Positions 3,427 to 45,209 of a stretch of 64,000 nucleotides of DNA are shown here, piece after piece (position 1 is the first letter of the stretch; each line of letters starts with the position of its first letter). Made by a program: the position numbers and the translations under genes. The stretch comes from Amphibalanus amphitrite (lineage: Eukaryota > Arthropoda > Thecostraca > Balanomorpha > Balanidae), in contig NW_024881522.1 in assembly GCF_019059575.1 (NCBI RefSeq), positions 1,337,001-1,401,000 of the forward strand, in the 5' to 3' direction. The notes beneath the pieces are model-generated. The model was not told the DNA's origin. It searched no databases and worked only from the letters and a program-made list of their open reading frames with translations.

Positions 3427-4629
3427 CCCGCGCCCTGGTGGGGTCTGTTTATAACGCGACCTGGTGGGGGGGGGGGCTATTTTTTGCCCCCCCCCCCTCG
3501 TATCTCCGAAACTACTGGACGGATCCACAAAATTCAAACGGCGTTCGAAAGGCCTGTCAAATTTGTCGAAGGAAACAAAAGTTCATTGACCTCGGGGTCA
3601 CCGATGACGTCACAGGTCAGGTCAAAGATGAAATGTTTCACCGTTCACGGGTCTTCTAGGGAATGCACTATAACACCGAGGAAAACGCATTTTGTCGAAA
3701 ATCAGCGATAGGGCGTCAGTTGCCTAGTAGATATGTTGCTATTAGAGGTCACTGACGATACCAGGTCACGTCACAGGTCAGGTCACCAAGGGTCACAGGT
3801 CAGGTCACATGAGCCCAACTTTACTAAGGTTGTGTGATGCATGTTTTATGGCCAATTTTCATTTCCAACTCAATGGTGTTGGTTATGAGACTATCAGGTA
3901 CGGCTTAGGTCGCTTTCTGGTGAAGTTCAGGTCAAGGTCAGGTCAAGGTCAGGCCAAAAAAGGTCAAATTTTTAAGTTGATAGTTTTGCATAAAATGGGT
4001 ATTGATTCGATGCAGCTCGTCACGGGGAGTCTAATGGTGGTCTTTGTTTTTCGCTACGGGGTCTAGAATTGTTAAAAATTGAGTTTGAAAATTTGACGTC
4101 ATCAATTTTGAGCAGTTTTTTCGCTATAACTTCGCCAAAAATAGAGGTATCAATCTCAAATTTGGTATGTGGATGGAAGGCGGTAAGGACTATCACATAT
4201 ATTCCGGTTTTTGCGAAATTCAAAAAACTTTTTGATTTTTCGATCATAATATCAAAAAAAAAATTGATTTTTGGGGGTCAAAATGCAAAAATTTCAAAAA
4301 TCCGAGATAGCAGTTTTGTAGCCCTGTCAATTCTACAGCTTTTATGTTTCTTATCATTTTTCTGTATTTGCAAAGCTATAGGCCTGCCAGCTCTTCCCGC
4401 GAAACCCTTTTTTGGGTCGAAAACGGCAGAACATGACGTCACTCTGACGTCATTTCCAGCCAACCTATCATAGCCTTTGGAAAAAATTTTGGTCACCATG
4501 TGTAAAATTGATGTCCGGGAGGGTACTGCAAGTTTGGTGACGATCGGCGCAGCGGTTCTGGAGATATATCGAAAAGTCTGGAGGGGGGGGGCAAAAAATA
4601 GCCCCCCCCCCCCACCACCAGGTCGCGGG
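3427..4629. mobile_element. Inner TTAA-flanked non-autonomous element (piggyBac-like MITE)
   Basis: The 1,203-bp element is bounded by TTAA at 3423-3426 and 4630-4633. It has inverted ends beginning CCCGCGCCCTGGTGG on the left and CCCGCGACCTGGTGG on the right, minus strand. Just inside each end is a G-run / CTATTTTTTG / C-run hairpin block (about 3463-3500 and 4585-4612). It disrupts the PLE frame precisely at a TTAA, which proves insertion order. The open frames across it are by-products and no transposase is seen. Confidence 0.8.
3605..3965 (+). promoter_or_regulatory. Array of AGGTCA half-sites and a CRE inside the inner TTAA element
   Basis: Within 360 bp there are roughly a dozen AGGTCA or near-AGGTCA hexamers, densest at 3614-3624, 3755-3807 and 3930-3965, with a TGACGTCA at 3605-3612. 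AGGTCA is the half-site bound by nuclear receptors, many of which in arthropods respond to ecdysteroids. Whether these repeats bind anything is unknown. They may simply be the element's own subterminal repeats, which would normally bind transposase. Confidence 0.35.
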
Positions 4630-5623
4630 TTAAGGCCTGCCTCACACCCATTGCACCGCCTACCTGCTCCCGGACACGGTGGAGGAAGGTAGGCTGACCT
4701 AACCAGTTTTTTCTTCAAGCTGGGACCTCCCTTCCACGCTACCCTTATGTTCAGATGACTACTCCTGATGATGCCTTCTGTCTTACGGCACAGTTCATCA
4801 TCCACGAAAGGGAGGGTCATGAAGGTTTGAGAGGGTTGTTGCTGAGTGGTGTGAGGAGAAGCTGATGCTCTTCGGACTGCTTCGTTTTTCAACCGATTGA
4901 CTAAGTGAGGAGGGTAGCCATTTTTTACGAATAGTTCCTGGATTGTTTTCAAACTGCGCGCCCGAGGGAGTCCCGGGGAGGAGACCCTGATGGCCGGTAA
5001 GAATTGTGACCGTACTGTGTTTTTCTTTGTGGAAAGGGGTAGCGCTGAAAGGAAGTGAACGATCACTGGTGATGACATGGGTTTTACGAAAAGTTCACTT
5101 GTGTAAGACCCTGACTCCAAAATTGATATTTTGGTGTCAAGGAAAGCCAATGAACCGGTATCGGCGGTATGCTCAATCGTGAACTTGATTGTTGGGTGAA
5201 TGGTGTTCAGAAAGTTGAAGTACTCTTCGAGGGCTTCTTTCCCATGGGTCCAGACCCCAAAGACGTCGTCTATGTACCGCAGGTACAGGACGGGCTGGAG
5301 GCGCTGGGTGGCAAGGGACATTGATTCTAAGGCATGCATGAACAAAATTGCTAGTGGTGGGGCCACCCTGCTGCCCATGGCGATGCCGTCCGTCTGTTTG
5401 AAACATTTTGATCCAAACCGAATGAAGTTGTTTGTCATGCAGTGCTCTAAAAGTTTTTTAACGTCAGCTACTTCCAAACCGAAAGTTTCCACCCGTTCCT
5501 TATGGTGCTCGAGGAGGGCCATGGTGGCGTCGATGGCTTCCCTAATTGGTATGTTGCCGTAGAGGTTTACGACGTCGATGCTGAAAAGTATCGTACCTGG
5601 TTCAATGCCGAAACTGGCGCGCC

Positions 5624-5714
5624 CAATGCCGAAAGCTTCTCAAAAAGTTTGTTTTATTTCGAATCCGGAATTTGCTTTTAGATAGAATGAGAGTGAGGTT
5701 AGTTTTCTTACTAT
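5624..5714 (-). repeat. PLE inverted terminal repeat, 5'-side copy
   Basis: This is identical by eye to the minus strand of 2603-2692. It abuts the truncated reverse transcriptase at 5623 and ends at TACTAT next to GGTAG, a string also present near the left boundary (about 2545). Confidence 0.7.
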
Positions 5715-6245
5715 AGGTAGGTAGTAAGCAGATGCAAAGATGCAGGTGGATAAGGTATGTGCCCTTTCCGATCGAAGCATGTGCCCTATGCCACCTTTGG
5801 GACGCAGTAAAAAATCCTTAAAATATGCCCTGGTACAACCCTAGCTGACAGCTACTTAGAGACACACTGAACCTAGTTTGACCAAATCTGCACCTAATCT
5901 GCAACAGATGTGCACCAAATGTGTACCAAATGGCCGTCGTGAAAACGGCTAATATTGATAATTTTTACTTTGACCTGAACTATGACGTCATCGGTGACCT
6001 CGAGTCAATGAAATTAGGTTTCGCTCGACAGTTTTTCCAGGGCCATCAGACGCCGTTTGAATTCAGTCACTCGCATTATTGAAAATACCCCAGTCATGCG
6101 CGGGTTAATATCCATTGCGCGGATACGTTCAAGAGCAAATCTGCATGGATTTATCTTTCCGTCAAAAGAAATTCGTAGGTACTGATCATGACACTGGAGA
6201 GTGTGAAATCATTTATTCGTGACCGAGTCTGTGCCATTTCCCCAG

Positions 6246-6939
6246 ACGCGGAATTCTGAACGCTGACACCACTGTGCTCGACACTGCCCGCGTGGTGGCC
6301 GGCATCAACCGATACTCGCGGGACCCCGCCTGGATCGCCAAGACCACGCGGATCGTGCACGAGTGCCTGGAGTACGCCTCTGACGGCCTGACGACGCGCC
6401 AGCTGACTGTGTACACCTACCTCTGCCTCAAGTGGAGCCTGTTCGCCGATTGTGACCTCCAGCAGGAGCAGCGCGGGGTCCTGGACGAGGAGGGAGCGCT
6501 GCGCAGGGCCCGCTTCCTCTCTGGATACTGTCCGCTTAGCCCCAACACGCTCAGAGAAGTCCTGGAGCACATCACCGGGCGAACGCTGCAGGAGTGCGGA
6601 AAGGGCCTCTACGCGGGCTACGAGCCGCACCAGCTGTACCAGGCTGAGATCGCCCGCCTCGTGTGCCTGTTCCAGAAGTTTATCGGCGCCGATGGCACGA
6701 TCGACCTGCAGGCCGTGAAGCTGGCCATCACCTACGGAGAGGGCGCCAAGTTCCGAGAGGCGGTGGAGGGCTGCATCCGCACCCAAACCAAGGCCGGCTC
6801 GGGCGGCTACAACCGGCTCACTGCCGAGGAGTTCGTCCGGTGCTGGGCCGACAGGGGCGTCATCAGCTGCGTCCACCAGGAGGCCAACCAGGTGGGCGCG
6901 CAGCACTCCGACAACTGCGACGTCACCCTCAGCTTTTAA
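6246..6939 (+). CDS. Secreted tandem six-cysteine protein, last exon
   Basis: The acceptor TTTCCCCAG ends at 6245 and the frame runs to TAA at 6937-6939. The exon holds the second half of domain 1 and all of domain 2. Intercysteine spacings in the joined protein are 16-24-43-19-8 for domain 1 and 21-22-35-22-8 for domain 2, so the product is an internal duplication. The invariant C-x8-C ends each domain (LCLKWSLFADC and RCWADRGVISC). Domain 1 carries one extra cysteine. No transmembrane segment follows the signal peptide, so an extracellular protein of roughly 320 residues is expected. Function is unknown. C5-x8-C6 is also seen in insect odorant-binding proteins, but the other spacings do not fit. 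Phase 2/1 joining with exon 2 supports the gene model. Confidence 0.72.
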
Positions 6940-9012: not shown

Positions 9013-11199
9013 ATGGCTGAGGCGGCGCCAACTGATCGAGCTACCCAGCTGGGCCGCGAGTTCGGGGCCATGCTGGCTGGAATGCCGGAGGACTTCCTAC
9101 GAATGGTGATCAGCCGGAGGCGAGCCGGCGGAGGCGGCGCTGACGACATGTTCAAGATCCTCACCGACATGGAGGCCAGGCTGTCGCAGCTCAGCCCGGG
9201 CGCCCTAGAGCGTTTCACGGACACAGCTCGCGGTGAGCTGCCGCGCGGCCACCGGGTGCGCTTTGACGAGATGGTCGCTCTGGCGTGGTGCGGCGATCCG
9301 CCCGGGCTCGTGAGCCGGCTGTATCCCGGTCTGAGTTGCGCCCAGCTCCGCGCAGAACTATCTGTGTGGTCGGTGTCGGGTGAGACGGCGCTGACGGACA
9401 TGGAGGCCGCCCTGAGGCTGGACGAGTCGCTGCAGAGGGCGCGCCACGCCGACGACAGGTGGCGGCACCTGTGGCAGGTGGACGAGCTCGTGCACATGAA
9501 GCCCCTGGTGGGCAGAGAGCTCAGGGTGGCGCCTGGCGTCTGCGCCTGCTCCACTGAGGCAGGCGCTGCAGTGGTGGAGGGCGTCGTCGCCTCCGGCAGC
9601 AGCAGGGAAGGCGTCGGCTTCCGCACACTCGGCCTGACACCCGCCGCCTGGGAGGTGAGCCAGGCTTCGGACACCGACCTGATGCTGGAGCTCGGTCCCG
9701 GCGCGCTCATCTCGCAGCTCGAAATAGCCTCTCTGTGCGACTGCGGAAACCCGCTGGCCTCAACTGGCTACGTGCTGCTCAACTACCCGAAGAGCCCGCG
9801 CTGCGCCCTGCCCGGTCGCTGTCCTTTCTCAGCATCTTCCCTGTACATCGGGCTGCGGAGCGGCTCGGCCGGTCTGAGGAGCACCGTTCGCTCCGGCCCT
9901 GCGTTCACGTCCGTGGCGCGAGAGAAGGATCGCTCGTTTGCCTACGACCTGGACCTGGTGCTCTCGATCCCGGGAGTGGCGTGGCCCGACGGAGCTCTGG
10001 AGGCGTACCGGAGCCGCCAGCAGTTCACGGGCTGTGTGACGCGGTCCATGGTGCAGCGCCTCACCGCCACCAAACTGTACATGGTGGCGGCCGGCTTCAA
10101 GCGCAGTCCCTCCGCAGAGCACCAGTGGCGCTATTCCTTCTCACAGCAGGAGTACATGCTGATGCGGATGCTGGAGGCACAACATCGCGAGTGTCTCGTC
10201 ACACTCAAAATCGGCAAGAATCTTCTGGGTAAAAGGGTTCCTCAGTTGAAGAGCTACCATCTCAAAACAGGTGTGTTGTGGATAGCTGAGGAGAGGAAAG
10301 AGTTGGGGAGCCTGCTCCATCACACCATGGTCGTCCTCGACTTTGTGCAAACATGTGTGGAAAAGGGCGTGCTTCCCTGTTACTTCTGGACGGAGATAAA
10401 CCTTCTGGGATCGCTGAAGGCTGCGGAGCGAGCTGAAATGGCCGAATCGCTTAGAAACATGCGCAGTATGCTGGTCCCGGTACTGAGCCTCTACATTCAC
10501 CAAGCAGTGCTCGGCATCAGTGTGACGCCTGGTCAAAACCCGAACATCTACTCCACTCTCACCGATGTGGATTGTCTGGCCATAGCCTGCGCCAGCTTCT
10601 CAAAGTTCTGCGCCGATCGTCTGCACCGGGCCGCTTATGAGCACTACCGAGAGACGGCGCTGCTGGAGCATTCCCTGAGAGTCTCTCGCCTCCCGCTGGC
10701 AGCTCAGCTCCACCTGGTGTCTGTGACCCGGCGACCTCTGCCCGACGGCAGCGCGCACCTGATCCACGCCATCGCCAGCCTGCCGGCGAGCGCCGGGGCG
10801 CGGTTCCCGCTCCACCATGTCCTCTGCACCGACGGAGGAGAGTTCTGGGAGCTGGAGCTGACCTGGTTCTTCCAGGAGGGCATCCGACAGCAGGCGGTGC
10901 CGTACCTGCCCCAGCTGGAGACGGCGCTGGAGGTCCAGTACCGGCTGCCGCCGGAGGCGAGGGTGGCTGACCTGCCGGCCGAACTGATCCGGCCCCTGCG
11001 GCTGCTGACCGCCCAGCAGCTGTGTGGGCTGTACGTGCGGCAGCCGCTGCTGCTGCTGGCGCTGCTGGGCCTGGAGCAGCACCGGGTGATACCACACAAC
11101 ATGGCCTGGGAGGACGCGGAGAAGACTGGGACGCTGCTGAGGGTCGTCTGCCCGACGGACCTCAGAGACAAGTGGATGGAACTGGAAAGCCCTGCGTGA
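9013..11199 (+). CDS. Mab-21 / cGAS-like nucleotidyltransferase (candidate cGAS-like receptor), single exon
   Basis: The 728-residue uninterrupted frame starts at an ATG in good context (G at -3 and +4). Residues ~185-330 form a nucleotidyltransferase core: GSSREG at 195-200 (the GS motif), SDTD with Asp220 and Asp222 (first two metal ligands), and DLVLSIPGVAWP with Asp314 (third ligand). Residues ~370-480 form the Mab-21 helical lobe, including the diagnostic SYHLKT (414-419) and CYFWTEINLL. All three acidic positions are kept, unlike many inactive Mab-21 relatives, so an active enzyme is plausible. In this family cGAS and cGAS-like receptors sense nucleic acid and make cyclic dinucleotides for STING; that role here is inference. 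Unusual features are ~180 unrecognised residues before the core and ~240 after it, twice the size of a typical Mab-21 protein. The absence of introns may reflect a retrocopy origin or simple architecture. Confidence 0.88.
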   Translation: MAEAAPTDRATQLGREFGAMLAGMPEDFLRMVISRRRAGGGGADDMFKILTDMEARLSQLSPGALERFTDTARGELPRGHRVRFDEMVALAWCGDPPGLVSRLYPGLSCAQLRAELSVWSVSGETALTDMEAALRLDESLQRARHADDRWRHLWQVDELVHMKPLVGRELRVAPGVCACSTEAGAAVVEGVVASGSSREGVGFRTLGLTPAAWEVSQASDTDLMLELGPGALISQLEIASLCDCGNPLASTGYVLLNYPKSPRCALPGRCPFSASSLYIGLRSGSAGLRSTVRSGPAFTSVAREKDRSFAYDLDLVLSIPGVAWPDGALEAYRSRQQFTGCVTRSMVQRLTATKLYMVAAGFKRSPSAEHQWRYSFSQQEYMLMRMLEAQHRECLVTLKIGKNLLGKRVPQLKSYHLKTGVLWIAEERKELGSLLHHTMVVLDFVQTCVEKGVLPCYFWTEINLLGSLKAAERAEMAESLRNMRSMLVPVLSLYIHQAVLGISVTPGQNPNIYSTLTDVDCLAIACASFSKFCADRLHRAAYEHYRETALLEHSLRVSRLPLAAQLHLVSVTRRPLPDGSAHLIHAIASLPASAGARFPLHHVLCTDGGEFWELELTWFFQEGIRQQAVPYLPQLETALEVQYRLPPEARVADLPAELIRPLRLLTAQQLCGLYVRQPLLLLALLGLEQHRVIPHNMAWEDAEKTGTLLRVVCPTDLRDKWMELESPA

Positions 11200-11318: not shown

Positions 11319-11324
11319 AATAAA
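11319..11324 (+). terminator. Polyadenylation signal AATAAA of the cGAS-like gene
   Basis: A canonical AATAAA 120 bp after the stop codon, giving a short 3' UTR. Confidence 0.6.
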
Positions 11325-12500
11325 AAACAGGCATGCATAGTTAAAAAACGTAGGGAAAGAAAAAGACACGCCTACAAATGTCAGATTTAGAACGTTTTTT
11401 ATAGCATCTGACAACAATCACAAAATCAGCACCGATGTGATAGGGAGGAATATACAGTGGTACGGTGCGGTGTCCATTCGACGTCGCCAGCCGGATGCAG
11501 CCTTTTGACAAAAGTAGTGATCAGTTACACTGATTTTGAATATGAAAAGTTACAGACTGCATACCGTTGAGAACGTGTGTTGTGATTTAATATCTACTTT
11601 GTTTGAGGCTTATAATGTCTATTCTTTTTAACCATAGATCATTGTCAATCGTTTTGTGCAGAACGTCACGTGTTATGGGAGTGCAAAACTGCTCGAAGTA
11701 CGGGACAATGTCGTCAATTTGAAACTTTTTTGGACAAGGTTGCTACCCGAGTCGGTTACCGGACTTCAGCTTCTCACTAACCCGGAAGACGGTCGGCATC
11801 CTACTCTTAGCGCCCTCACTTAGGCCGGGGACGCTCGGGAAGATAAAGTTGCCGCTGGCACGAAGTTGACCCCACCTCCGCGAGCCAGCCATTGTCCCCC
11901 ACGGCCCCGCCGGTCTTGGCGTTCAGTTCAAATACACCGTCAAGTAAGGCCACCATGGTGCGCTTACTTGCTGTCACGGTCATAGTCACGAACATCGCGG
12001 TTATCGTCACGGTCATCACGAACATCTGATACCGCAGGGTGACCAATCGGCCATTGTTGGTCTTTAATTTTTATTTAAAAATGTCATCCCGACCATGCCC
12101 TGTGGAAGGTCGTATAGTAAAATAATGAACATTGAACCATTTCTAAATAATAGTTACCGGTTCCTGCGGCAGTCTTCCACGTAATAACCACGGCCTATCT
12201 ACCGCAGCGACGGTACCGGTTAGTCCGTCCTCGAGTCTATAGTGTGACCCGGCGGGACGCACCATCCAGCCGTTCAAAGGGTGGCGCCACTTAGGACTGC
12301 TCCCAATGGATCTAAGCCCGCCGGTCGCCTGAGAGGGGATGTCAGCCCGAGGCAGGGTTCTGAGATCAAGGTTGAGGATAGGGTGGGTCTTCGAATGAAG
12401 AGGAAGGGTAAGGATATGTGAATGTCTCTTATTCCACCAACCAAGTGCAGCTGACGAGGACAAGGCAGCCAACAGCCAGTACACTGGCTAAGGATGGAGG
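11325..12500. other. Intergenic, no gene recognised
   Basis: There are no supportable exons. Around 11,975-12,030 there is a short degenerate GGTCATnGTCACGAACATC repeat, which explains the odd minus-strand open frame there. Confidence 0.45.
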
Positions 12501-12540
12501 CCGTCAAATTCTGTCTGTCAGGGCTATCCTGTCTGGCGTC

Positions 12541-12690
12541 CGTCAGATTCTGTCCGTCCGTACGGACCGACGGCCGTCAGATTCTGTCTGTCCGTACGGA
12601 CCGACGGCCGTCAGATTCTGTCTGTCCGTACGGACCGACGGCCGTCAGATTCTGTCTGTCCGTACGGACCGACGGCAGTCAGATTCTGTC
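12541..12690. repeat. 34-bp minisatellite built from two palindromes
   Basis: Four near-perfect 34-bp units begin at 12,541, 12,575, 12,609 and 12,643, followed by a partial unit. A diverged copy precedes them at about 12,500. Each unit contains GTCCGTACGGAC, and each junction forms GACGGCCGTC. Both are perfect palindromes. Because 34 is not a multiple of three, all three forward frames are crossed by the same peptide, which explains the apparent coding here. Confidence 0.85.
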
Positions 12691-13090
12691 TGTCGGGGCT
12701 GTCCCTCTCGGTCCGGCCCGGTTGGGCTGACCGTCTTTGCCTGCCGACCTATGCATTCGGAGTTCGTCCTGTGCCTCTCAGCCTGCTGCCGCCAGACTAG
12801 CCTCAGCTCTCAGTTCTCAGCGCACCCAGCACTCTCCTCAGTTCAGCGCGCCCGGCACCGGCATCAGCTAACACAGCCGGCAACTTCCTCATCCCAGCAC
12901 GGGTCCCAGCTCTCACCACGTGCCCCAGCTCAGCACGGGCCTCAGCTCAGCACCTGTCTCAGCTCTCCCGCCCGGCGTGGGCCGGTCCTGTCGGCGGATC
13001 AGCCGGCGGCCGAGGCTGCCGCCCAGTTTTGGCAGCCGCAGGCCCACTATCGACTCAGCCCGGGGGTGAACGACTCCTTCGCCCGACCGG

Positions 13091-13294
13091 TGACGTCACA
13101 GGGCACCCGTGACCGGGCCAACACCCTCGGGGGTGCCGGGTCAGCGCGACGCGGCCCGTGTCAGCACAGAGGAGAGGGTGCATGGCAGCTCCAGCGACCT
13201 CTCAGCCGTACAGGTCTCACCCGTGTACCGCCGCCGCCGCCCGGCGCCCAGCGCTGTATGTGACGTCACACGGACCGGCCGGGGTGTGACGTCA
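13091..13294. promoter_or_regulatory. CRE cluster in a GC-rich, promoter-like island
   Basis: Three full cAMP-response palindromes TGACGTCA occur at 13,091, 13,261 and 13,287 inside a GC-rich, CpG-rich block (about 12,700-13,900). Good splice donors follow at about 13,511 (CGCAG|GTGAGC) and 13,572 (CCCAG|GTGAGC). The block could be a promoter with a non-coding first exon on the plus strand. No downstream coding exon was identified. Confidence 0.4.
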
Positions 13295-42189: not shown

Positions 42190-42449
42190 TAGTCCTCCTG
42201 GGGCCGGATGGTCGGTTCGATCGGCTGTGCTGTTATCAGTCGGTTGGATCGACGTTTCGGTCTGATTCTTTGAAACGGTTTATTCGGCTGTGTTGTATCA
42301 GTCGGCTGAATTGGTTTGCCGGTCTAGTTTTGTTTGACACGGTCCGGTCGGCTGTGTTGTTATCAGTCGGTTGGATTGGTTTGTAGTCTCAGTTGTTTCA
42401 TACAGTCCACTTTAAATACTTGGCATACAATTTGGCCTAGCTTTGAACC
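42190..42449 (+). other. LTR element leader with degenerate repeats
   Basis: The leader between the 5' LTR and the gag ATG has three diverged copies of CGGCTGTGTTGTTATCAGTCGG. A primer-binding site starting TGGGGCC is possible at about 42,199, but the matching tRNA is not identified. The repeats may be packaging or promoter sequence. Confidence 0.4.
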
Positions 42450-45209
42450 ATGGAGGATTTGTTGGCGACCAGAACCAGACTCCGCTCAAAGGCGACCCGA
42501 CTTTGTAATGACCTCCGATCGTATCGAGAGGCAGATCGTACGACGGTGGATCCTGACCAGCTTGCCCTCAAGCTTCACCACCTGGAGAAGCTGCGCCATG
42601 AGATGGAGGGTGTCCAGGGTAACCTGGATAAGCTGGATCAGTCAGATGATACCAACCACTTGCAGATTCTTGAGGACGAGATGTTTCTCGGTTCGCGCCT
42701 CCTTTCTCGCCTTGAGAAAGCTGAACAAGCGCCAGTCAGGGTTGACGCTTCAAACTTCGCGGGAAACGCAGACTTCAAAACGTCCCTCACCGTGAAAATT
42801 CCCATTTTTCATGGTGACGTAATGCAGTGGTCTGAATTTTGGGACTTGTTTGCCATATCTGTTCACAACAACTCAGGATACGCTCTTGTCCAGAAATTCG
42901 TGGTACTGAAATCGCACCTGGCAGGTGATGCTTTGCGCTGCATTGAGGGCATTCCAGTGTCGAGTGACGGCTACCTTCAGGCCGTGGCCGCGCTCAAGGA
43001 GCGGTTTGAACGGGATGATGTGCGGCGGGAGACGCTGATGCGTGACCTCCTGAACCTGCAACCCGTTCGACACGGCGACCTTAAAGGCATGCGGTCATTG
43101 ATCGATCACTTGTCTGCGCGTACTCGAGCGCTCAGTACACTTGGCGTCCACCCGGAAAGCTTTTCGAGCCTGTTGCTGCCAGTCGTTAAGGATAAGATCC
43201 CTGAGGATTGGCGTCTAGAGTGGGTCAGGAGAGAGAGTGGAGACTTTACGGAATTTCTACACTTCCTCAACCGTGAAATACGGCTCCGGGAATCGGCAAG
43301 AGGGGTGTCAATGGTGCAGACACGACCCGTGGCCCCGTCCGCTTCCACTCAGTCTGTCACAAGCACTCTCACTGCGCGGCGAGAGCCCGGCACTGAGAAG
43401 CAGAGGCCCCCTCACGGGGCAAGGACCGTGATGTGTCCTGTTTGTCAGCAGGCGCACCACGGTCTAGAGAGGTGTGACAAGTTTCAAACCTTCAATCTGA
43501 AAGCCCGTTGGGAGACTGTGAAGGCAGTGAGGGCGTGTTTTCGGTGTCTGAAGTATGGACATCAGATTCGGGACTGCAAGTGCAGTCGGTGCACGGAGTG
43601 TGGCGGGCCGCACCACCCCCTGCTCCACAATCATCGTCCCTCGCCATCGAATTCACCCAGCAACCAGTCGGAACTGTCGCCCGGGGCTGTACCTTTCTCT
43701 CCAGCACGTCCTACTGACAGAGTGGCGCGCCCTGATGGCAGCCCAAGTGAACTCACGGGGCAGAGTCGCCACCGGTACAGTGCCAGTACGGCAAATGAGA
43801 AAGCACATTTCTTCCAGACGGCTCTCGTAAACGCTGTGGGACCCAAGGGTAGCCGGAAGGTCCGTATCCTCCTAGACGGAGGGTCCGACTCCTCCTACAT
43901 CAGGAGCTCGCTGGCAGAGGAACTCGGTCTTCCCAGCACTGGCACGGCTACTTTTGCCTGCCTCGGATTTCAGGAGAAGGCTGAGGAGGCTCGCTCGTAC
44001 GACAAGGTACAGGTGGAGCTCAGAAGCTTGTTTGGTGACTATTCTCTGAATCTTGACATGTGGAGCACAGATCAGCTGTGCTCGCCCCTTCCCACCTCTT
44101 CGCCACCCCCTGTTCCTGCCGGTCTGGATCTGGCCGACGACTTTGGTGGTGGCGAAGTTCATGTATTGATCGGCCTCGACAATCTTTATCGAATCGTGCT
44201 GTGGGGACAGGTGGAACTTGAAGAAGGGCTTAGAGCCATAGAGACTGTCTTTGGCTACGCCATTCACGGGTACCGCGGCGACGTTTCGCTGATACCGACC
44301 GGTCACCAGTCTTCCCACTGTCAGCTGAGACAGGTGGGGAGTCTGGATGAAGTGAGGGTCGGCCAAAATGAGGCCATGGATGTGGATGGCATGCTGCCTG
44401 AGCCACACTGGGACAAGCCAGTGGGCTGTTCCAATGAAATGAATTTGACGATGCAGTCGGATGATCGCTCACCATCCGATCATGGTTCCGCAAAGGCGGG
44501 AACCCCGCAGCAAGAGCTGCTCAATGCAAAAAAACCTCACCTGAGCGGTGACGACCTCCATAAAACGATGACTACTAAGGGTGGAGACACGACTCTCTCT
44601 GTCAAGGGGTCAAATGATGACACAAAACAAAATGGTGATGGCGGCGCCGGGCTGTCGCCAGGCAAACGCGACTCCTGGGCTGTCGCCCGGAGTCAGGGTC
44701 TCAAGCCCTCATCGCATGTTCCTGTGGAGTTCGTCCAATCATCTGCCGTGGACGAGACGGACCGGAGCCAATGGAGTGCTGTAGCACCCCGGCGACCTCG
44801 CCGATGCCTGTCGGCTCCGACGCGAGACCGTCGGCAGCCGCCTCCGAAGAGCCGACGTCTGCGGCGCCGCTGGAGGAGCGACGGGGCAAGATGGAGGTGG
44901 AGCCGGAGCTGGAGGACGACTGCCCCACTGGAGGCACCGTCTCTTTTCACAGCATTCCCACGTCTGTGGAAGAGGAGAAAGAAGAGGACGCAGCCGAGGA
45001 CGCTGGCCCCCCGGTCCAAGGACCCATGGCCGGCTGCGGAAGGCCTGACCAGGCCCACAAGGACTGCCGCAAGTTGGCGTGCGGCCAGTGCCATGATGTG
45101 TCTTTTGTTTGTGATTTGTGCGCGCGTTGTGACTAGTGTGGAAAATGTGTTAACTTTTTGTTCCCACATTTTGGTGGGGAGGATGTTAAGGTTTGCTACT
45201 TTAGCCTAA
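42450..45209 (+). CDS. BEL/Pao gag-protease polyprotein of the LTR element
   Basis: The 919-residue frame starts at ATG 42,450. Residues ~1-95 are charged and probably coiled coil. Residues ~115-290 are the gag region typical of Pao elements (IPIFHGDVMQWSEFW). A CCHC zinc knuckle lies at Cys363, Cys366, His371 and Cys376, with more Cys/His to ~393. The aspartic protease has LLDGGSDSSYI at 474-484 (Asp476) and LIGLDN at 573-578. Normally reverse transcriptase would follow FGYAIHG (~601-607). Instead there is a low-complexity linker. From about residue 775 (44,775) the frame becomes arginine-rich while another frame (44,771-45,136) looks more protein-like, suggesting a frameshift. The frame stops inside the 3' LTR. 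Confidence 0.85.
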   Translation: MEDLLATRTRLRSKATRLCNDLRSYREADRTTVDPDQLALKLHHLEKLRHEMEGVQGNLDKLDQSDDTNHLQILEDEMFLGSRLLSRLEKAEQAPVRVDASNFAGNADFKTSLTVKIPIFHGDVMQWSEFWDLFAISVHNNSGYALVQKFVVLKSHLAGDALRCIEGIPVSSDGYLQAVAALKERFERDDVRRETLMRDLLNLQPVRHGDLKGMRSLIDHLSARTRALSTLGVHPESFSSLLLPVVKDKIPEDWRLEWVRRESGDFTEFLHFLNREIRLRESARGVSMVQTRPVAPSASTQSVTSTLTARREPGTEKQRPPHGARTVMCPVCQQAHHGLERCDKFQTFNLKARWETVKAVRACFRCLKYGHQIRDCKCSRCTECGGPHHPLLHNHRPSPSNSPSNQSELSPGAVPFSPARPTDRVARPDGSPSELTGQSRHRYSASTANEKAHFFQTALVNAVGPKGSRKVRILLDGGSDSSYIRSSLAEELGLPSTGTATFACLGFQEKAEEARSYDKVQVELRSLFGDYSLNLDMWSTDQLCSPLPTSSPPPVPAGLDLADDFGGGEVHVLIGLDNLYRIVLWGQVELEEGLRAIETVFGYAIHGYRGDVSLIPTGHQSSHCQLRQVGSLDEVRVGQNEAMDVDGMLPEPHWDKPVGCSNEMNLTMQSDDRSPSDHGSAKAGTPQQELLNAKKPHLSGDDLHKTMTTKGGDTTLSVKGSNDDTKQNGDGGAGLSPGKRDSWAVARSQGLKPSSHVPVEFVQSSAVDETDRSQWSAVAPRRPRRCLSAPTRDRRQPPPKSRRLRRRWRSDGARWRWSRSWRTTAPLEAPSLFTAFPRLWKRRKKRTQPRTLAPRSKDPWPAAEGLTRPTRTAASWRAASAMMCLLFVICARVVTSVENVLTFCSHILVGRMLRFATLA
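44771..45136 (+). CDS. Overlapping acidic, cysteine-rich ORF of the LTR element
   Basis: A 121-codon frame overlaps the end of the gag-protease frame. It encodes an acidic middle (MEVEPELEDDCP, EEEKEEDAAED) and a C-terminal cysteine cluster (CRKLACGQCHDVSFVCDLC) resembling a zinc-binding knuckle. It ends 47 bp before the 3' LTR. It may be translated by frameshifting or from a spliced RNA, or be the former continuation of the polyprotein after a frameshift mutation. No known family was recognised. It sits where polymerase genes would be. Confidence 0.45.
   Translation: MECCSTPATSPMPVGSDARPSAAASEEPTSAAPLEERRGKMEVEPELEDDCPTGGTVSFHSIPTSVEEEKEEDAAEDAGPPVQGPMAGCGRPDQAHKDCRKLACGQCHDVSFVCDLCARCD
45173..45183 (+). 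other. Polypurine tract of the LTR element
   Basis: The purine-rich GGTGGGGAGGA directly abuts the 3' LTR, the expected position of the plus-strand primer for reverse transcription. Confidence 0.7.

Follow-up and report, generated by a model that had tools for sequence, protein, structure and literature searches.

A divergent cGAS-like receptor candidate with a lineage-specific N-terminal extension in the barnacle Amphibalanus amphitrite

Enzymes of the cGAS type raise an alarm by making a small messenger molecule, and the cGAS-like receptors (cGLRs) with a known ligand respond to double-stranded nucleic acid. Does a barnacle gene that encodes such a catalytic module between two long extensions specify a working enzyme of this kind, and what are the extensions? 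The question is raised by a 64,000-nucleotide stretch of Amphibalanus amphitrite DNA (the window; assembly GCF_019059575.1, contig NW_024881522.1, our C25:1337001-1401000), in which positions 9013..11199 (+) encode a 728-residue protein that we call P0001. An initial annotation had described it as an oversized, apparently catalytic cGLR candidate. From sequence comparison and predicted structure, we consider it reasonably probable that P0001 is a divergent, probably active cGLR within a barnacle-expanded cGLR-STING system, with an N-terminus specific to its lineage.

An intact gene with a cGAS-like catalytic module

P0001 is a real, intact gene under purifying selection. In the list of open reading frames it is a single uninterrupted frame from 9013 to a stop codon ending at 11199 (+), and 120 bases past the stop lies an AATAAA (11319..11324, +), which from its consensus we take to be a possible polyadenylation signal. 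A second full-length protein, P0002, is 71% identical to P0001 over 99% of its length, with an identical start (MAEAAP), both extensions and a nearly identical end; it is probably an orthologue from another species, itself probably a barnacle. The same genome also holds a copy on contig C54 that is 95% identical to P0001 over residues 1-726. The two loci share 90.6% identity over 5,040 alignment columns, with colinearity continuing for about 1.6 kb on the upstream side and 1.1 kb on the downstream side, and their coding parts give nonsynonymous (dN) and synonymous (dS) rates of 0.023 and 0.100 by NG86, or 0.020 and 0.135 by YN00. Since P0002 is conserved over the full length and dN is far below dS between the two copies, P0001 is not a chance frame.

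The catalytic module (residues 166-495, 9508..10497, +; isoelectric point 8.9) was delimited from Pfam, sequence, profile and fold matches. Pfam places the helical lobe Mab-21_C (PF20266) at residues 392-480 (10186..10452, +) with an E of 2.4e-8, above the cut-off; at residues 293-385 the Mab-21 nucleotidyltransferase domain falls just under its own cut-off (23.1 against 24.1 bits). By Pfam, phmmer and profile, homology extends over the nucleotidyltransferase core as well as the C-terminal helix bundle. As the initial annotation had read, the active-site residues stand together with this lobe: the GS activation-loop motif GSSREG (residues 195-200, 9595..9612, +), the metal ligands D220 and D222 in a DTD triplet (9670..9678, +) and the third ligand D314 (9952..9954, +). 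G195, S196, D220, D222 and D314, that is, a GS loop and three acidic ligands, are all present. The assignment of D314 also draws on the coral Sp-cGLR1 structure (PDB 8gjy), where it aligns with an Asp at an equal distance from the next Trp (by eye), and on a 35-row alignment of 29 further frames of the genome, P0001, the C54 copy and four database proteins, from which most near-identical copies and the longest frames were left out. The five residues are kept in 33 of the 35 rows, the exceptions being L045, whose frame starts too late to include the GS loop, and L011, which has His and Tyr for the first two aspartates.

When P0001 alone was compared with solved structures using phmmer, the best match was 8gjy (E 2.5e-9, residues 289-482); three further chains came in at E ≤ 1, namely MB21D2 (5.2e-5), the oyster Cv-cGLR1 (PDB 8gjw; 0.025) and 7lt2 (0.23), and neither cGAS nor Mab21L1 was among them. 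The family profile ranks Sp-cGLR1 first (5.1e-29), followed by cGAS (about 2e-18), MB21D2 (2.2e-13), Cv-cGLR1 (2.6e-11), 7lt2 (2.4e-9) and, last of the six, Mab21L1 (8.4e-7). The AlphaFold model of P0001 has structural homology to known cGLRs and cGAS/DncV-like nucleotidyltransferases, with a fold match spanning residues 134-493 and an identity to vertebrate cGAS of about 20%. The description of the module as apparently catalytic and cGAS-like is thus borne out. A developmental Mab-21 identity, under which that description would fall, does not agree with the weak match of the profile to Mab21L1, which shares the superfamily fold with P0001. A separate mab-21-type exon of the genome matches Mab21L1 at 1.3e-31, so the developmental gene is a different one, apparently with introns. 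PADLOC returned no match for P0001 to P0003, and the 75 pattern matches on viral contigs included no relative.

A large family and STING genes in the same genome

P0001 belongs to a very large barnacle family of single-frame cGLR-like genes. In the 807.6-Mb assembly (2,644 contigs), a search that scored 150 of 236 candidates gave a lower bound of 150 Mab-21_C matches, counted as open frames rather than confirmed genes and probably with both haplotypes included. Among these 150 listed matches, the frames are at least 400 residues long in 134, at least 600 in 104 and at least 900 in 37, some reaching 2006; the large size that had been singled out as distinctive is therefore common. Many matches are clustered on single contigs, and contigs with matches include C991, C1045, C1733, C1347, C907, C2442, C1382, C1473, C1571 and C2085.

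For closer comparison, 62 loci were reduced to 55 frames similar to P0001, forming 41 groups at 90% identity. Together with P0002 to P0005 they make a set of 59 proteins, in 52 of which a loose script pattern, GS-D-x-D, was found (not in L003, L006, L007, L023, L024, L045 and L062). Pfam searches of the 35 rows and of a further 14-row set (13 of them additional) yielded the two Mab-21 domains as the only convincing domains, beside scattered weak matches, the best being Taq-exonuc in P0002 (0.00076, below the cut-off). The assembly probably contains both haplotypes, since 15 pairs of fetched frames are 91-99% identical. P0004, an A. amphitrite protein, has a counterpart in the genome at 95.6% identity, whose own two copies are 97.2% identical to each other. 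P0003 is 68% identical to its counterpart, a divergence similar to that of P0002, and from this it looks like an orthologue from another species.

In a tree of 48 catalytic modules, from which 11 loci with near-identical copies were left out, P0001 groups with its C54 copy and P0002 in a single clade within a supported group of 19 rows, mostly shorter proteins (98/98), and longer paralogs such as L053 fall into a separate group of 25 (87/92); the tree carries long-branch warnings, including one for a join in the 19-row group, and only 34% of the L021 row is filled. L053, a 718-residue frame with 24% identity to P0001, was modelled confidently (predicted local distance difference test 85.5, predicted template modelling score 0.87); its model had one match under 0.001 in a viral fold library, a Hyperionvirus protein at a root-mean-square deviation of 18.9. 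Like P0001, L053 is a single open frame with the same active site.

The initial annotation had proposed a search for STING in the same genome, and such genes are indeed there: the STING domain PF15009 is found at 27 places, 22 of them flagged over the cut-off, one of these only jointly with its neighbour. If contigs are paired by the lengths of their frames, the genes would number about nine. Two STING domains per frame occur on C298, C912, C172 and C517, and the frames L063 (C912:184900-186500, 434 residues) and L064 (C172:218300-219700, 422 residues) have two STING ligand-binding domains in a row, with no obvious transmembrane part by eye within the open frames, upstream exons not having been looked for.

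Animal cGLRs have been reported as widespread pattern receptors, 87% of them without an added domain and with large sets in some bivalves and cnidarians; the main text of that report contains none of the words crustacea, barnacle and arthropod (Li et al. 2023, PMC9980059). Our literature searches found no paper naming barnacle and Mab-21 together, nor a description of a barnacle Mab-21 expansion in the titles and abstract openings of the top matches listed.

The extensions, a putative zinc site and neighbouring frames

The initial annotation had counted about 420 extra residues around the module, which is close; the fold match leaves about 133 residues before it and 235 after, hence about 370. 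Its statement that they match no recognised domain stands, as nothing in the flanks, residues 1-165 included, reaches the Pfam cut-off. These residues separate P0001 from the animal cGLRs Sp-cGLR1 and Cv-cGLR1 (Li et al. 2023, PMC9980059), to which its catalytic module and residues are alike, and the N-terminal part is unlike any that we found. The solved Cv-cGLR1 chain seems itself to be cut from a longer protein, because its residues are numbered 288-633 where aligned.

The N-terminal extension (residues 1-165, 9013..9507, +) is predicted by AlphaFold to form helices, at low confidence only, and its end, from about residue 134, may be a long helix ahead of the catalytic core. We found no convincing relative of residues 1-165 among solved structures (by sequence) or the fetched frames of the genome, including L053. 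In the genome search with P0001 as query (253 candidates, 61 scored), only the gene itself and its C54 copy match from residue 1, the other 59 of the 61 listed matches starting at residue 155 or later. Two weak matches, to Zincin_2 (0.0074, below the cut-off) and to a streptococcal surface protein (0.017), were taken as chance. We have also considered an ordinary paralog N-terminus, but when a profile of residues 1-165 was compared with the corresponding ends of 13 related-group rows it scored only 13.2, a value that 28 of 100 shuffles reached. Between P0001 and its C54 copy, changes affect 3 of the 180 N-terminal positions, 10 of the 306 in the core and 23 of the 242 in the C-terminal part (Fisher test, p 0.0008 for N- against C-terminal, p 0.39 for N-terminal against core). 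Against P0002, residues 1-130 are 69% identical and the core 76%; since the N-terminus is not better conserved than the core there, we claim no special constraint on it. In the searches made, the truly unusual part of P0001 thus appears to be its front end, with relatives only in its own orthologue group (the orthologue and the second copy). It would be lineage-specific and possibly new, and this is the part of the proposed new architecture that holds, the large size and the tail segment described below being common among paralogs. That the N-terminal part is a sensor or adaptor, as had been suggested, is a guess.

The C-terminal extension (residues 496-728, 10498..11196, +), modelled at low confidence in P0001, behaves differently. 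Searched as a single sequence, the last 233 residues match only the P0001 gene and its C54 copy below E 0.7, and likewise among the fetched frames. Profile comparison of residues 637-685 (10921..11067, +) with the long paralogs gave a score of 39.0 (P 6.3e-5; 43 columns, 40% identity), against 28.1 for the best of 100 column shuffles and 12.1 for the reversed profile, the P0001-side profile having been built from three sequences only. Uniqueness of this extension was accordingly rejected, and because the segment is common to long paralogs the tail is, at least in part, an old property of the family. L053 has the related 43-column segment in its own C-terminal extension, which is helical and confidently modelled, unlike that of P0001. 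Nearly all of the 35 aligned rows have a Trp close to the C-terminus (residue 721 in P0001, 11173-11175), often in the form D-x-W-[ML]; it may cap the structure or belong to a short motif for binding.

Four Cys/His positions around the GS strand could possibly form an extra zinc site. Half of this putative quartet is C177-x-C179 (9541..9549, +), directly before the strand, and the other half is C264 with C270 (9802..9822, +), where C-x(1,2)-H stands in most of the paralogs seen and C-x5-C in P0001, P0002 and the C54 copy. In the alignment C264 is invariant, and C177 and C179 nearly so. Among the 52 pattern-positive proteins, which take in near-identical copies, 48 have C-x(1,2)-C within 40 residues before GS and 49 a downstream Cys, in 44 of them as C-x(1,2)-H (the 49 and the 44 counted by eye). 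A script misplaced the motif in two of the 52, namely L021, which is one of the 48 and whose frame starts inside the core, and P0005, whose true C-x-C is seen in the 35-row alignment. The near-identical pair L048 and L049 lacks both the second Cys and the His. The location of the quartet differs from that of the Cys-rich zinc-ribbon insert of cGAS chains, which has no counterpart in P0001 in the profile alignments by eye, if the ribbon lies where we presume it to lie in them. This conserved quartet is a further difference from the animal cGLRs, and the word zinc does not appear in the main text of Li et al. (PMC9980059). One might go further and see in P0001 a cGLR with a barnacle-acquired N-terminal sensor or adaptor (residues 1 to about 133, not in the paralogs) and a second, non-cGAS zinc site holding the GS strand, which together would make dinucleotide synthesis respond to some ligand that is not free nucleic acid; we regard this combination as rather unlikely.

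Four other frames of the window were noted. About 2 kb upstream of P0001, a 238-residue frame (6223-6939, +) has a sub-threshold PBP/GOBP match as its best Pfam result (0.0094) and no match among solved structures at E ≤ 1. In the frame at 12412-13263 (+) a short peptide unit like SVRTDRRPSDSVCP recurs several times in nearly the same form (by eye), which makes it a short tandem repeat and not a likely gene. The frame at 4278-5639 (-), probably a retroelement fragment, matches reverse transcriptase weakly (PF00078, 2.7e-4, below the cut-off), and a 920-residue frame at 42447-45209 (+) carries DUF1759 (1.8e-26), which we take to be a domain of BEL/Pao-type retroelements.

Weighing the readings

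The view of P0001 as a working cGAS-like enzyme is supported by the purifying selection on the gene, the cGAS-type fold, the GS loop with its three aspartates, a large family of single-frame genes whose aligned members nearly all keep this site, and the STING-domain genes of the same genome. Such an enzyme would bind its ligand and close its active site, the closed form would make a cyclic dinucleotide, and a barnacle STING would detect it; the extensions at its two ends would adjust how the ligand gains access, where the protein is localised or which partners it binds. Several observations weigh against this view. P0001 alone ranks MB21D2 second and no cGAS chain at E ≤ 1, so that the link to cGAS comes from the family profile and the fold rather than from the P0001 sequence alone. 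Model confidence is low in the stretch from GS to D220 (53 for residues 201-210 and 44 for 211-220), the branch that leads to the P0001 clade is long (1.58 changes per column), and some of the 7 of 59 family members failing GS-D-x-D may have lost the site. The published cGLR pattern, h[QT]GS [X8-20] [DE]h[DE]h [X50-90] h[DE]h (Li et al. 2023, PMC9980059), is departed from at S194 (for Gln or Thr, giving SGS), at T221 (for a hydrophobic residue) and in the gap of 23 between GS and D220; the final spacing of 89 lies within its limits, and the Ser before GS is nearly invariant across the 35 rows. The looser curation rule of the same source, G[S/G] and [E/D]h[E/D] X50-90 [E/D], agrees with P0001 except for T221 and a spacing of 91, one above its limit. 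Finally, three crustacean Mab21-domain proteins of shrimp, LvMab21-1/2/3, were reported to give no detectable cGAMP and to bind IKK-epsilon instead (PMC12928593).

By analogy with these shrimp proteins, P0001 could be a scaffold: its extensions would bind an IKK-epsilon/TBK1-type kinase, which would thereby be activated without any nucleotide product being required. LvMab21-1, with 1,042 residues and a Mab21 domain at 373-716, likewise has long extensions and acts on IKK-epsilon; all three are described as lacking essential nucleotidyltransferase catalytic residues (PMC12928593), whereas P0001 keeps them, and their retention in 33 of 35 rows would be difficult to account for if they served no catalysis. 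We therefore hold the scaffold to be an improbable account, yet a better one than a Mab-21 superfamily nucleotidyltransferase with a non-immune role in development or housekeeping, single-copy unlike its multiplying relatives, which we find quite doubtful. The latter would fit the rank of MB21D2 and the behaviour of the locus: among the 61 listed matches, full-length similarity is confined to one locus and its 95% copy, and the orthologue P0002 is 71% identical (P0003 is similarly diverged from its own counterpart, at 68%), so that no expansion like that of the clustered genes is seen here. It agrees poorly with the family profile, which is nearest Sp-cGLR1 and cGAS, and with the separate mab-21-type exons, which are far nearer Mab21L1. 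As for a copy in decay or an open frame arisen by chance, we found nothing in its favour beyond seven other frames of at least 80 residues overlapping 9013-11199, the longest of only 249 codons; the frame is stop-free in both copies and in P0002, dN/dS is well under 1, and we have set this account aside as extremely improbable.

Taken together, a cGLR with intact catalytic residues remains our preferred account of P0001, and its N-terminal part offers a specific candidate, open to experiment, for a new means of switching on a cGLR. A very large barnacle set of cGLR-like genes, many of them large and with intact sites, together with several genes for STING domains, some frames holding two, would add a crustacean case to what is known of these receptors and would stand against the report of non-catalytic Mab21 proteins in shrimp.
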